Below the pieces are notes generated by a model. The model saw nothing but the letters and a program-made list of their open reading frames with translations, was not told the DNA's origin and did not search any database. 42,352 nucleotides of DNA, from positions 1 to 42,352 of IMG/VR virus record IMGVR_UViG_3300038549_000029. The stretch is one strand, 5' to 3'. This DNA is from a virus. The translations under genes were made by a program, and so were the position numbers. This document shows positions 33,429 through 38,627 of this stretch, one piece after another (within the stretch, counting starts at the first letter, position 1; each line of letters opens with the position of its first letter).

Positions 33429-34916
33429 ATGGCACACCAGGGCGGTAAAGACTTCGAGCCAGGCATCATCGACAGAGTAAGTGGCGCTGTTTCATGGCTT
33501 GTGACTGGCAAAGTCCCGGCATGGTTCGGCCCCAATCAGCCATTGGCACCTGTGGCGCCCAAGGAAGTGGAAGGTCGGGCATTCGACTATCCCGTAGGCG
33601 TCAACCTCAACTACATGCCCAGGTCTGAACAGTCGGAATCCGGAGTCAGCTTTGCCACCCTGCGAGCAATAGCCGATCCTGCCCTAGGTGGTCTCGATCT
33701 GGTGCGCCTGGCAGTAGAGACGCGCAAAGACCAGATGGAAGCCCAGAGGTGGACAATCCGTGGATTGGACGGTAAGGATGCAGGCGACCGTGGCAAGAAG
33801 GCTATGGGACTCTTTCGCAGGCCTGATGGCGTCCACACATTCCGGCAATGGGCAAGGCAGCTCTGGGAAGACCTGCTGGTCATCGACGCGCCATCGGTCT
33901 ACATTGACCGTGGCATGCCTGAGATCATCGACGGTGGCAGCATAAAGCTGCTTTCCGATCCAAACGGCAGGCGCCCTATCCCACCACTCCCTGCCTTCCA
34001 ACATGTGCTCAAAGGGATGCCAGCGGTCGACTACACCGCTGATCAGTTGATCTACTTCCCACGTAACCTACGCAGTAATAAGTTTTATGGCATGAGCCCG
34101 GTTGAGCAGTTGATTAACATCATCCAACTGGCCCTCAAGCGGCAGCTCAGCTTGACAGCGGTCTACACTGCCGGGAATGTTCCTGAACACCTCATTGGTG
34201 TGCCTGAGAGCTGGAATCCAAAGCAAATTGAATTGGCCCAGCAATACATGGACGCGCTAATGCAGGGCAACATCGAGGCCAAGCGTAAAGCCCTGTTCGT
34301 TCCTGGCGGGATGCAGCCGATCAAACTGGGTGACCCAACCATGCATGAAGGCTTTGACGAATGGCTTGCCCGCTTGATCTGCTGGTGTTTCTCGATCCCA
34401 CCCACTGCGCTCGTGAGACAGGTAAACCGGGCTACCGCAGAGACTGCCCAGATCCAGGCGCAGCAAGAAGGCCTCGAACCGCTCAAGGAGTGGTGGAAGG
34501 ACTTCATGAACGAGATCTTGGTCAAGTGCTACGGAATAACGGATCTCGAATTCGGGTGGCTTGATGCTGAGATTGTCAACCCACAGATCAAAGTCCAGAC
34601 CGCATCCATGGCGTGCGGCGGGTCAGCGTTTATGACCAAGGATGAGGTAAGGACGACGTTCTACGGGCTTGATCCACTCACACCGGAGCAAAAGGAAGAG
34701 TTGGCGCCTAAGCCTGTCGATCCATTTGGTGGGATGTTTGGTGTGGGTCAAGAGCAACCCAAGAAAGACGGGGAGGACATTCCAAAGGAAGAACCGGAAG
34801 AGAAGATAGCCAAGCGGAGGTTACTTCAAGCCGATCAACCGGAACGGAAAGGCTGCACGTGTGGCAATTGCCAAAATACAAGCAGCAAGCAAAAAATACC
34901 TAGGCAGTATCCGTGA
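33429..34916 (+). CDS. Portal protein
   Basis: The 495-residue protein starts at ATG 33429 (GAGG upstream). Typical portal segments are FATLRAIADPALGGLDLVRLAVETRKDQM, RQWARQLWEDLLVIDAPSVYIDR, LIYFPRNLRSNKFYGMSPVEQLI and CWCFSIPPTALV followed by AETAQIQAQQEGLEPL (all quoted in part). It forms the dodecameric ring for DNA entry. The C-terminus is charged and ends CTCGNCQNTSS. The next gene (MuF-like) begins 56 bp inside it. Confidence 0.9.
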   Translation: MAHQGGKDFEPGIIDRVSGAVSWLVTGKVPAWFGPNQPLAPVAPKEVEGRAFDYPVGVNLNYMPRSEQSESGVSFATLRAIADPALGGLDLVRLAVETRKDQMEAQRWTIRGLDGKDAGDRGKKAMGLFRRPDGVHTFRQWARQLWEDLLVIDAPSVYIDRGMPEIIDGGSIKLLSDPNGRRPIPPLPAFQHVLKGMPAVDYTADQLIYFPRNLRSNKFYGMSPVEQLINIIQLALKRQLSLTAVYTAGNVPEHLIGVPESWNPKQIELAQQYMDALMQGNIEAKRKALFVPGGMQPIKLGDPTMHEGFDEWLARLICWCFSIPPTALVRQVNRATAETAQIQAQQEGLEPLKEWWKDFMNEILVKCYGITDLEFGWLDAEIVNPQIKVQTASMACGGSAFMTKDEVRTTFYGLDPLTPEQKEELAPKPVDPFGGMFGVGQEQPKKDGEDIPKEEPEEKIAKRRLLQADQPERKGCTCGNCQNTSSKQKIPRQYP

Positions 34917-36363
34917 CCACCTTCTGAGCTCAGTCGAGAAGGCAGACACGCCAGATTACAGCAGGCTCGTTGAACTTCTTGCCCAGTTGCCAGAGGAAGA
35001 ACGTAGGCAGTATTTGCAGGCGATAGAGGATGCAATCTCAACCATGGCAGAATTCGGGGTAGAGGCTGCGTTAAAACAGATTGAGAATCTATTACCATCC
35101 GGCTCAGATCCATTCAAGCAAGCCAACGAGGAGGCTATTGCCTGGGCAGAGGAAAGATCTGCCTGGCTGGTGACGAAGATAGATGAAACCACCAGAGAGA
35201 ACATCCAGACGCTGGTAGAAAATGCCGAGAAGGATGGATTATCGAACCAAGAATTGGCCCAACAACTCAGGGATTCTGAGGCCTTCTCTGATGCCAGGGC
35301 CGAGATGATAGCCAGAACTGAGACGGCCATGGCCGATGTGCAGGGTAACCTTGCAGGGTGGAAGGCAAGTGGGGTTGTGGAGGGCAAGCAATTCCTGGCA
35401 GCGCCAGATTGCTGCGACGAGTGCCAGGCCATGGCGGATGTTGTAGTAGGGCTGGACGAAGAATTCCCAGAGGGAGACCCCCCCATCCATCCTAACTGCT
35501 TCCTACCAGGAACTTTGGTATCTACCGTTGGTTGGGTTTCGTCTGTCTTTGAACGTTGGTATGAAGGGGAAATCGTTCGCATTCGAATCGAGGGAAATCC
35601 AGACATCACCTGCACGCCCAATCACCCGATATTGACGCAGCGCGGATGGATTCCCGCCGCACAACTCACAGAACGCGACTACCTGTTCAAGGTGTCTAGG
35701 GAAATGTTTAGTTCCGTTAATCCAGAGAATAATCACGTTAACGCCTTGATTGAGGAGGTATCTAATACGATCTCCATGTCTGGCCGCGTGTCTACCACCC
35801 GCATGCCATCCTCCACCGAAGATTTCCACGGCGATGGAACCATTGATCAGGAAATCAACATTGTAAGGGCCGACAGCGGCTTGAGGGCGGATACCAGAAA
35901 ACACGGAGGAAAGCATACCAAAGAAGGCAACTTCTTGATCACTGATTCCGATTTGGAGGCCTTCGCGCGAGAGTGTAATTGCGCTCCTATGAGTTTGGGA
36001 TTGTCTGGAACCACGAACTGCAGCATGAGCTGCTTTGACACGAGCAAGCCTAGCTTCAGGAGTGGACCTGGCAGCTTCTGCGATATGCGCGGCGGAACTA
36101 TCTCGGATATGAAGCCCGAAACGATTAAATGTCTTGCGGATGGTGGAGCTATGGCAACCAAGGCTCTTAGCAATGTCAACACTGCTCTCTCCAGCCTCAT
36201 AACGACGGTAAATATCAAGGAGTTGATCGTCGGTGAACAATTTTCTGGACATGTCTATAACCTCGAAACGGAGGGTGGGTGGTATGCAGCCAATGATATT
36301 ATAGCACACAACTGTCGATGTGACGTGATCGCAGTTATTAAAGAACAGGAGGGTGAAGAATGA
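34861..36363 (+). CDS. MuF / SPP1 gp7-like head protein interrupted by an intein
   Basis: The GTG start at 34861 overlaps the portal end. The 500-residue precursor has a helical N part (residues 1-212; LVENAEKDGLSNQELAQQLRD and SDARAEMIARTETAMADVQGNLAGW typical of the MuF family, quoted in part), the Cys pair CCDECQAM and the family ending DPPIHPN|CRCDV, which is split by a 272-residue intein (213-484). After splicing the mature protein would be 228 residues. MuF-like proteins attach to the portal and are packaged or assist head morphogenesis. The stop overlaps the next gene by ATGA. Confidence 0.88.
   Translation: MAIAKIQAASKKYLGSIRDHLLSSVEKADTPDYSRLVELLAQLPEEERRQYLQAIEDAISTMAEFGVEAALKQIENLLPSGSDPFKQANEEAIAWAEERSAWLVTKIDETTRENIQTLVENAEKDGLSNQELAQQLRDSEAFSDARAEMIARTETAMADVQGNLAGWKASGVVEGKQFLAAPDCCDECQAMADVVVGLDEEFPEGDPPIHPNCFLPGTLVSTVGWVSSVFERWYEGEIVRIRIEGNPDITCTPNHPILTQRGWIPAAQLTERDYLFKVSREMFSSVNPENNHVNALIEEVSNTISMSGRVSTTRMPSSTEDFHGDGTIDQEINIVRADSGLRADTRKHGGKHTKEGNFLITDSDLEAFARECNCAPMSLGLSGTTNCSMSCFDTSKPSFRSGPGSFCDMRGGTISDMKPETIKCLADGGAMATKALSNVNTALSSLITTVNIKELIVGEQFSGHVYNLETEGGWYAANDIIAHNCRCDVIAVIKEQEGEE
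35503..36252 (-). CDS. Antisense homing endonuclease nested in intein 2 (HTH plus Vsr-like)
   Basis: The 249-residue ORF runs opposite to the intein and is wholly contained in it. ATG 36252 has GAGGT seven bases upstream and an extended -10 (TGCTATAAT) 46 bases upstream. Residues about 5-46 form an HTH (DIYRRYEAGESSVDIAKSLG, CHSSTIRKTFNRFGL). Residues about 103-180 give a Vsr/EDxHD-like nuclease core: QEVAFF (E107), YNVDFLING (D133), SIAVEIFGGGWH (E143, H150), RHGDRIRYLLNQG (D161) and VNVIILWIN. Vsr-type homing endonucleases with an N-terminal HTH are known beside fractured/split inteins, which fits. The open frame extends to 36309 without a better start. Expression is not shown. Confidence 0.78.
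   Translation of the reverse strand: MSRKLFTDDQLLDIYRRYEAGESSVDIAKSLGCHSSTIRKTFNRFGLHIRDSSAAHIAEAARSTPEARLARVKAAHAAVRGSRQSQTHRSAITLSREGLQIGISDQEVAFFGMLSSVFSGIRPQAAVGPYNVDFLINGSIAVEIFGGGWHAGGRHAARHGDRIRYLLNQGVNVIILWINGTKHFPRHLEQVVAFCELCGGNPSALRQYRVIGRAGDVWISLDSNANDFPFIPTFKDRRNPTNGRYQSSW
36298..36306 (-). promoter_or_regulatory. Extended -10 promoter for the antisense endonuclease
   Basis: Minus strand: TGC (36306-36304) then TATAAT (36303-36298). It lies within the codons of intein block G (D-I-I-A). The predicted start near 36291 gives a leader of about 40 nt with the Shine-Dalgarno site before ATG 36252. No good -35 box. Confidence 0.55.
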
Positions 36364-36563: not shown

Positions 36564-36784
36564 TGCGCTGGCGTGTGGCATACGTCAAGGTAAAGAGCGC
36601 ACTAACCAAGCTGCGCCGAAAGTGGATACGTGATAGACTTGGCAGGAAGTTTTTGCGCAGGACGAAACGGATGGTGTGGAAAGTGCCCATCGTAGCAATC
36701 CACTGGGTGAAATGGCGCATTAAGAGACACGAACGGGAAACCAGATACAAGCGTGAGCGCAGGCGGATGTATGGACCTCGGTAG
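36563..36784 (+). CDS. Extremely basic small protein (73 aa)
   Basis: Starts in a TAATG overlap at 36563. About 40% of residues are Arg or Lys (for example LTKLRRKWIRDRLGRKFLRR and KRHERETRYKRERRRMYG), with Trp scattered. It lies between MuF and fibre genes. It may bind nucleic acid or the acidic scaffold; no family is recognised. Confidence 0.55.
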   Translation: MRWRVAYVKVKSALTKLRRKWIRDRLGRKFLRRTKRMVWKVPIVAIHWVKWRIKRHERETRYKRERRRMYGPR

Positions 36785-38627
36785 GCTGATTGCCCTAATA
36801 CGTGTCTTTGGCTACAAAGGAGCCCAAGGGCCTCCAGGGCCACAAGGGCCTGCCGGTGCAGACGGCGAAGACGCAACCATGGAAGTTGGGACAGTCACCA
36901 AGATCGCGCCCGGCGGCGTCCCAACTGTGGACAACTCCGGAACAGAGATTCACGCAATTTGGGACTTCGGGCTTGTGACCGGGGACACCGGGGCTCAGGG
37001 CCTAAAAGGTGATCAAGGCGATAAGGGTGATCAAGGTGATCCTGGACCGCAGGGCCTTCAGGGCGATAAAGGGGACAAAGGAGACCAGGGCGACAAAGGC
37101 GATACTGGCGACAAAGGAGACCAGGGCGACCCTGGCCCGCAAGGTCTGAAAGGCGACAAGGGTGATCAAGGCGATCAAGGGCCACAAGGATTAAAGGGTG
37201 ACAAAGGGGACACTGGTGATCAAGGAATCCAAGGCATCCCTGGTCCTGCGCCATCAGGCACAGCCAACCAGGTATTAGCGACACCAGACGGAACCGATGG
37301 TGTTTCTTCTTTGCGGTCATTGGTCAAGTCAGATCTTCCGTCTTTGTCATCGTCAGATTTGTCGGACGGGCCATGTGTGCCATATCCATACTCTGTTGCC
37401 ACCTATACCAGCGCAGATTGGACTGGCGGGAATGTGACATATGTGCCTCTGTCTGGGAATCTTCAGACCTATATCGACAATGCATCGGCTGGCGACACAT
37501 TAATCCTAGCCGCTGGAACATATACCAGGAATCGTTTAGCCATAGATAAGGCCATCAACATCGTCGGGCAAGGCCGGAAGGACACTGTTGTTAATGTAGT
37601 TGTCACATTGGACACTCCACGTGGAGCATTCGAGTTTTCCGCTAGCGATATCCACATCAGAAGCCTGTCGATGATTTGTGACGACTTGTTTATTGATGAC
37701 CCCTGCTTTTTGACCGTTTCACCAAACTTAACTGGTCTAATTGTAGAGGATGTATATATAAGGGCGAAGTGCAACGACGCTGGCAGCCCTGCCGTCGAGG
37801 TTTTAAACTCAGACCTTGACATGATCGATTGTGAAATTTATAGCGGGATACTAAACGCCATATCTGCGTGGCCGATTGGAGTGAAGGCCTATAACGATAG
37901 CAGCGCGTCCACAAACAACGTCGTAAATCTATACAATTGTAAAATTACAGTAGAATCGCCACTTGGCTGGCTCGGTGGAGCCCACGGGGTGGAGTGCTAC
38001 GGCGGTAGCTCGTCCAAAACCATGACAGTCAATCTGTATGGCAGCTCTGTTATCGCAACTGCTGATTCATTGTGTGTTGGCCTATTTAACTACGGAGGAG
38101 CCAGGTCAATAATCAATGCGTATCATTGTGACATAAATGCGGTTACATATGATGTTTATTGTGGTGCATCTGGCGTTGTGAACCTTTATGATACAGTGTT
38201 GGTAAACAATACTGTCAATGGGACTGTGACATACAGGGCCGCTGTTAATGCTGGGTTGGGTATATTCAGCACATCAATAAACACCCCTAGAATAGCCAAT
38301 TTAACAACCAATGGTTTAATCGAAACCACTGGAGGGAACGGGACACTTGGGGTAAGGACAACTGTTTATCAGACAGCGTATGCAATCCTATCTGCACTTG
38401 GTGAATTGGCGGACGATGCCGGGTATCTCGAAAACGATGGCGCGGGAAACCTATCATGGGGTTCGTCGCCTGGCGGTGACGATAATTGGAATCAAACCGA
38501 GTATATACTGACAAAGGACCGGACGATAGAGGCCGGTAAATGTGTTATCATTGTTGGGCCGCTGCAGACGAACGGAAATACGCTGACGACAGAGAGTGGT
38601 GGTATCCTTTACACATTGAGAGGGTGA
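36771..38627 (+). CDS. Collagen-like / beta-helix fibre protein
   Basis: ATG 36771 is chosen within the end of the previous gene; the Shine-Dalgarno site is weak (GGCGG). The 618-residue protein has collagen-like Gly-X-Y runs (residues about 17-31 and 74-165: GPPGPQGPAG, GDKGDQGDPGPQGLQ). It then has DLPSLSSSDLSD, and residues about 215-510 are a right-handed beta-helix (LQTYIDNASAGDTLILAAGTY as entry, repeating IxVxN rungs). The end is an Ig-like segment. The collagen stalk would trimerise and the helix would bind or cut a polysaccharide. Confidence 0.8.
   Translation: MDLGRLIALIRVFGYKGAQGPPGPQGPAGADGEDATMEVGTVTKIAPGGVPTVDNSGTEIHAIWDFGLVTGDTGAQGLKGDQGDKGDQGDPGPQGLQGDKGDKGDQGDKGDTGDKGDQGDPGPQGLKGDKGDQGDQGPQGLKGDKGDTGDQGIQGIPGPAPSGTANQVLATPDGTDGVSSLRSLVKSDLPSLSSSDLSDGPCVPYPYSVATYTSADWTGGNVTYVPLSGNLQTYIDNASAGDTLILAAGTYTRNRLAIDKAINIVGQGRKDTVVNVVVTLDTPRGAFEFSASDIHIRSLSMICDDLFIDDPCFLTVSPNLTGLIVEDVYIRAKCNDAGSPAVEVLNSDLDMIDCEIYSGILNAISAWPIGVKAYNDSSASTNNVVNLYNCKITVESPLGWLGGAHGVECYGGSSSKTMTVNLYGSSVIATADSLCVGLFNYGGARSIINAYHCDINAVTYDVYCGASGVVNLYDTVLVNNTVNGTVTYRAAVNAGLGIFSTSINTPRIANLTTNGLIETTGGNGTLGVRTTVYQTAYAILSALGELADDAGYLENDGAGNLSWGSSPGGDDNWNQTEYILTKDRTIEAGKCVIIVGPLQTNGNTLTTESGGILYTLRG

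Follow-up and report, generated by a model that had tools for sequence, protein, structure and literature searches.

Canonical large inteins carry a LAGLIDADG or HNH homing endonuclease in frame, enclosed in a two-part Hint domain and inserted at a conserved site of the host gene. Dassa et al. (2009) reportedly described split inteins whose two halves flank a free-standing gene for a Vsr-like endonuclease, an arrangement in which an EDxHD-type endonuclease accompanies an intein as a separate gene. A 2025 preprint by Gosselin et al. (10.1101/2025.01.02.630785, cited in PMC11855218) is said to survey actinobacteriophage inteins and their non-canonical architecture and probably covers Gordonia MuF inteins. 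In a partial set of the literature, which did not include that preprint, we found no report of an endonuclease gene antisense to an intein or of control signals placed in splicing-motif codons.

Besides inteins themselves, several elements of such an arrangement are already known. EDxHD endonucleases are represented by I-Bth0305I, a homing endonuclease of intron type (PMC3943268; PDB 3r3p). Antisense endonuclease genes occur in group I introns, where I-DsqI and D. iridis S956 lie antisense inside self-splicing mobile elements of the rDNA, probably with an internal promoter (PMC9548176). In ShiLan, an out-of-frame HNH endonuclease is hidden on the sense strand of a phage gene that is still open in the host frame (PMC11855218).

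Here we analysed the phage record IMGVR_UViG_3300038549_000029 of IMG/VR (42,352 nt; "the window" denotes this whole stretch of DNA). The best explanation of the locus described below is, with high confidence, a mobile intein that has no homing endonuclease fused in frame; instead, a complete gene on the opposite strand of the same DNA, in codon register with the intein and expressed separately, encodes the enzyme. This reading is based on the geometry, the register, codon selection, constraint on two frames, predicted folds and a pattern of transfer, and from these we infer transcription, splicing and cleavage. The host gene and its intein are arranged as follows:

34861 to 36363, plus strand: intein-containing precursor of a MuF-like minor head protein (500 aa; the listed start is GTG)
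35497 to 36312, plus strand: intein of 272 aa (816 nt), from C1 to the terminal N, inserted at HPN/CRC of MuF
35497 to 35694, plus strand: N-terminal splicing region of the intein, blocks A to B (CFLPG ... TCTPNHPIL), residues 1-66, with a confident Hint-fold model
36247 to 36312, plus strand: intein blocks F and G (GHVYNLETEGGWYAANDIIAHN), from the sequence and the family alignment

The 34861-36363 gene matched Phage_Mu_F (PF04233, E 2.1e-11) as well as PHROG head morphogenesis profiles. Its intein begins with CFLPG and ends in DIIAHN before the next C; it scored 25.7 bits with the intein family HMM TIGR01445, above the cut-off of 24.5, and 33.7 bits with PF14890, just below the cut-off of 35.8. 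The splicing residues are C1, T40-P-N-H43 and the final H-N followed by C, with C1, T40 and H43 being invariant in the family alignment. The structure model is predicted to adopt a Hint fold resembling the splicing domain of the Mtu RecA intein (2in0; Z 12.7, rmsd 1.7 over 107 residues). A split intein with an intervening endonuclease gene was rejected, as 34861-36363 is a single continuous ORF. A canonical large intein with an in-frame endonuclease was likewise rejected, the endonuclease being on the opposite strand; family HMM searches gave no endonuclease match in the sense-frame middle of the intein. Directly downstream, 36753-38627 (plus strand) encodes a collagen-like Gly-X-Y repeat protein (PF01391), probably a fibre protein.

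The complementary strand of the intein contains a putative gene together with candidate signals for its expression:

35503 to 36252, minus strand: putative antisense homing endonuclease gene, 249 aa, ATG at 36252-36250 and TAG at 35505-35503
35803 to 35865, minus strand: endonuclease core motif YNVDFL...VEIFGGGWH (residues 130-150); read antisense, it gives the conserved intein string MPSSTEDFHGDG
36298 to 36306, minus strand: extended -10 element TGCTATAAT of a putative promoter, with a predicted transcription start near 36291
36260 to 36264, minus strand: Shine-Dalgarno sequence GAGGT, opposite the N-L codons
36250 to 36252, minus strand: ATG start codon facing CAT, the His codon of block F
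35503 to 35505, minus strand: stop codon TAG, opposite the intein Leu3 codon CTA

The endonuclease consists of an N-terminal HTH domain (residues 8-44) and a Vsr/EDxHD nuclease domain (residues ~101-221), and its family profile matched I-Bth0305I (3r3p) with an E value of 2.7e-4. The AlphaFold2 model (pLDDT 84.5) is predicted to resemble Vsr (1cw0, Z 11.9) and I-Bth0305I (Z 10.4); the alignments behind the structure models comprised window and IMG/VR rows only. Y130, N131, D133, E143 and H150 are invariant in one family alignment, H150 being near-invariant in another; D133, E143 and H150, with the near-invariant E107, are candidates for the acidic residues and His of the active site. By the codon table, the conserved intein string MPTxxEDFHGDG would be what the complement of the nuclease motif VEIFGGGWH spells. 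Upstream of its ATG the endonuclease ORF continues without a stop as far as a GTG at 36309, but in almost every family member the gene begins opposite the His of block F. In the phage records that were fetched, no annotated feature matched the antisense gene.

The initial annotation had proposed that the control signals of this gene are written in the most constrained codons of the other. In the window, each signal was found where it had been placed: TGCTATAAT is read directly from the antisense of the D-I-I-A codons GAT ATT ATA GCA, GAGGT from that of AAC CTC (N-L), 7 nt before the ATG, the ATG from the His CAT of GHVYNLE, and the TAG from the CTA of Leu3 in CFLPG. By sequence, TGCTATAAT fits a sigma70 extended -10 (TGnTATAAT). 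A generic promoter consensus scan of the window gave no match at the -10 site, because no -35 is present there. When the synonymous codons of the block F-G residues were resampled from the codon usage of the locus itself, the -10 exceeded chance (p=0.010; AT-matched p=0.027) and the SD alone did not (p=0.18). The window by itself would not convince, since its signals are modestly above chance; the weight comes from the relatives.

The locus shares its elements with the described systems and combines them differently. In contrast to canonical large inteins, its endonuclease lies on the other strand with its own putative promoter, SD, start and stop, and the sense-frame middle is predicted to be a largely unstructured shadow. 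The split inteins attributed to Dassa et al. are said to have the gene between two halves, whereas the present intein is one uninterrupted ORF whose complement encodes the endonuclease. The hidden ShiLan endonuclease is on the sense strand and comes with no splicing domain, whereas here the gene is antisense to a true intein and has identifiable signals (PMC11855218). I-DsqI and D. iridis S956 are insertions in RNA introns and entail no overlap of two proteins, whereas here both strands are protein-coding, in register (PMC9548176). With I-Bth0305I and Vsr the window enzyme shares a predicted nuclease fold joined to DNA-binding domains, but I-Bth0305I overlaps no protein-splicing element, while the window family has one or more N-terminal HTH domains and overlaps an intein.

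Relatives of this element are numerous. A search with the endonuclease protein returned 48 IMG/VR loci, and an intein query added a 49th (L049); a wider search gave 479 tblastn-confirmed relatives in IMG/VR, the best 80 of these 479 being kept. Others were found in phages of Salmonella, Escherichia, Gordonia, Vibrio, Mycobacterium, Pantoea, Cronobacter and other hosts, and at two loci in Micromonospora and Ornatilinea genomes, both antisense in MuF-type inteins. All 132 loci measured (49 from IMG/VR, 18 from phages and a further 65) have the antisense endonuclease within an open MuF-type frame and in exact codon register, such that endonuclease codon positions 1-2-3 face intein positions 3-2-1. 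TTA, CTA and TCA, the three codons that would be stops on the sense strand, account for 0 of 2023 Leu/Ser codons in 58 antisense genes.

Most inteins are ~271 or 315-334 aa long. Longer ones have a second HTH in the antisense gene, and two or three HTH domains stand in tandem in eleven loci (L010, L012, L014, L031, L033, L036, L051, L055-L057 and L070); the added HTH makes the intein longer by ~50 residues of sense-frame shadow. An internal start of the endonuclease in these ~50-aa longer inteins was rejected, because the extra piece is the second HTH, and the F-block codon still opens the frame. The residue opposite the endonuclease start is His in 78 of 87 inteins, and in many loci the stop faces Leu2 or Leu3, the residues that follow Cys1. 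Of 73 inteins that end in HN, 56 have a TATAAT-like hexamer at a distance of 44-48 nt before the start, 27 of them with TGn. In SSN-ending inteins (the SSNC class) the hexamer is at 26 nt and a -35 is opposite the Ser-Ser codons; six members of this class carry a perfect TTGACA-N17-TATAAT (12/12) wholly inside the intein, with a spacing in the 16-18 nt range of sigma70 promoters. The start codon opposite block F is missing in a few members (e.g. AAA in L029, GTA in L048, AAA in L131 and L156), so these would start elsewhere or be decaying, and the high-GC members L003, L034 and L052 have no good -10.

Variations at the host gene were also seen. Two Escherichia phages, KMB36 (L053) and fEg-Eco06 (L067), carry the same type of element at a second MuF site, VKNC/RARDGM, ~25 residues upstream of the usual HPN/C site and with CHVYTL as block F. 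The MuF gene of Gordonia phage Lennon (L082), related to Vivi2, contains a different Hint element, in which no antisense endonuclease was detectable. Several MuF genes (L058 and hits H70, H74 and H155), whether they carry the intein or lack it, are annotated as NAD+--asparagine ADP-ribosyltransferase, a label probably carried over from other MuF proteins.

We then asked whether relatives keep the signal bases beyond what the amino acids demand, comparing the choice at each codon with the expectation from the codon usage of each locus. Among 46 discovery loci, the SD Leu was CTC in 30 of 43 (9.7 expected), the -10 Ile ATA in 23 of 29 (5.4) and the other Ile ATT in 25 of 39 (11.1); Thr was ACA in 14 of 19 (3.4), His CAT in 32 of 40 (17.1) and Leu2 TTA or CTA in 23 of 24 (4.8). 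A replication on 41 new loci, with sites chosen beforehand, gave CTC in 30/40 (9.1 expected), ATA in 16/20 (2.3), ATT in 23/29 (7.5), CAT in 33/38 (15.7) and TTA/CTA at Leu2 in 11/13 (1.7); Thr ACA was weak (6/20 vs 3.0, P=0.06). In the combined set of 87 diverged intein clusters, the bias amounted to 60/83 vs 18.8 expected for the SD Leu as CTC (P 3e-24), 39/49 vs 7.7 for the -10 Ile as ATA (P 5e-28), 65/78 vs 32.8 for the start His as CAT (P 5e-15) and 34/37 vs 6.6 for the stop Leu2 as TTA/CTA (P 3e-26); these P values assume independence of loci and are approximate, clustering lowering shared ancestry and not removing it.

The bias was specific to the signals. A control Leu in block B was unbiased in the 87-intein set (12/57 vs 12.8), as were neighbouring synonymous sites in the same loci (Tyr F+3, Gly end-6 and extein codons). 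Most control codons of the 41-locus replication were unbiased too, one of six (Tyr end-10) giving P=0.04. The -10 was enriched on the antisense strand against an AT-matched null (P 2e-15), whereas the sense strand showed no enrichment (P 0.96), and AT-richness as its cause was rejected on these two grounds. Fifteen control inteins without an antisense gene, from Micromonosporaceae and phage Lennon, showed no enrichment of either signal (-10, P=1.0; SD, P=0.96), and none had the His. The M. jannaschii KlbA intein (2jmz; GHIYDL) also has His at this block-F position, so the residue is not in itself proof of a start codon; although it is absent from the 15 controls, we do not claim that the start codon alone imposes it. 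Free synonymous variation of the signal bases was thus not what the 46-, 41- and 87-member sets displayed, and codon choice, spacing and a bias confined to the antisense strand and to carriers support the idea that one gene's control signals sit in the splicing-motif codons of the other. One refinement is that the signals lie mostly in the free, synonymous bases of the constrained codons.

Substitutions were compared between eight Guernseyvirinae phages as per-site differences at positions 1/2/3 of the host codon. The extein gave.167/.103/.439. In the intein middle (.161/.029/.072) the endonuclease rules, host position 1 being endonuclease position 3; under blocks A-B (.123/.041/.138) both frames rule, and under F-G (.012/.012/.136) the intein does. 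The fold models are reciprocal: intein residues 128-219 are predicted to be disordered opposite the folded endonuclease residues 34-125, and endonuclease residues 221-238 and 246-249 are predicted to be disordered opposite the folded intein residues 4-32, its tail (221-249) being faced by the N-terminal region of the intein (residues 1-66). Substitution patterns and models together show, as far as sequence comparison and prediction reach, that both frames are maintained.

Evidence of mobility came from E. coli phage Snoke and Salmonella phage sidste, whose inteins are 95.8% identical and whose exteins are 74.6% identical. The ~130 nt upstream of the insertion are 93-95% identical, which is what co-conversion would give. 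Phage vB_EcoS_fFiEco03, the intein-free relative of Snoke, has a precise empty site, HPNCRS, with a span of 1044 nt (1860 - 816). The Snoke/sidste pattern is consistent with a recent, homing-like transfer and would fit cleavage of an intein-free allele. Salmonella phage L223 (L064) has an intein whose N-terminal part is like that of Pantoea phage AH01 and an extein like that of other Salmonella phages, which suggests possible recombination inside the intein.

Could the signals be a by-product, the amino acids of blocks F and G happening to spell them and common descent keeping them, with the antisense gene expressed in another way or never? These inteins spread horizontally, so DNA can be shared among loci, and the KlbA intein has the His at the same position with no such gene. 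The signal codons are nevertheless strongly biased where neighbouring synonymous sites of the same loci are not, and this survives clustering; moreover, the promoter occurs in two alternative positions and is lacking from the control inteins. We consider such a coincidence very improbable.

Slightly less probable still is that the main product of the promoter is a regulatory antisense RNA tuning MuF expression, the endonuclease frame being secondary. While a transcript antisense to a late gene must, from general knowledge, interfere somewhat, the strong purifying selection on the protein frame in the intein middle, the conserved nuclease core and the selection on SD, start and stop alike all speak against it. 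A comparably slim chance attaches to DNA contacts, in which the endonuclease or the recombination machinery would bind the intein ends, for instance in autoregulation, with the likeness to a promoter being incidental. The HTH domain or domains of the enzyme, and the general knowledge that homing enzymes can bind their own operators, would suit such contacts; yet the conserved bases coincide exactly with -35, -10, SD, start and stop, correctly spaced and separated by free bases, and a 19-nt shift accompanied by the gain of a -35 is not what one expects of a binding site.

Under the preferred reading of an intein with a separately expressed antisense endonuclease, the sense strand would yield a MuF-intein precursor that undergoes splicing. 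A sigma70-type promoter within the intein would drive transcription of the minus strand; in most members it is presumably the extended -10 facing block G, and in the SSNC class the full -35/-10 facing blocks G-F. Ribosomes would use an SD opposite N/D-L-Q/E of block F and an ATG or GTG opposite the block-F His, and translation would often end opposite Leu2/3. Promoter to stop lie within the mobile segment, and the control region therefore travels with the element. The Vsr-like/EDxHD endonuclease would then cut intein-free MuF alleles, and break repair would copy the intein in. With somewhat more doubt, we think it more likely than not that these loci form a widespread class of mobile inteins with an autonomous endonuclease gene in register on the complement, in which the synonymous bases of the splicing motifs are selected to spell a consensus promoter, SD, start and stop. 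The splicing domain, nuclease gene and control region would share a segment of ~820 bp, and in one subclass Ser-Ser-Asn in block G, in place of the usual Thr/Val-His-Asn, would go with a -35 box.

In these elements, opposite strands of the same DNA encode two unrelated folded proteins together with control signals, a natural situation that recurs many times, and such pairs allow overlapping genes to be studied quantitatively. They also warn that a conserved protein motif, here MPTxxEDFHGDG, can do no more than mirror an enzyme motif encoded on the opposite strand, and as compact natural intein-nuclease overlaps they are usable for engineering. For the phages, the analysis suggests that an unannotated nuclease gene is hidden in hundreds of phage head genes, and the arrangement explains how these inteins could keep their mobility although no endonuclease lies in frame.
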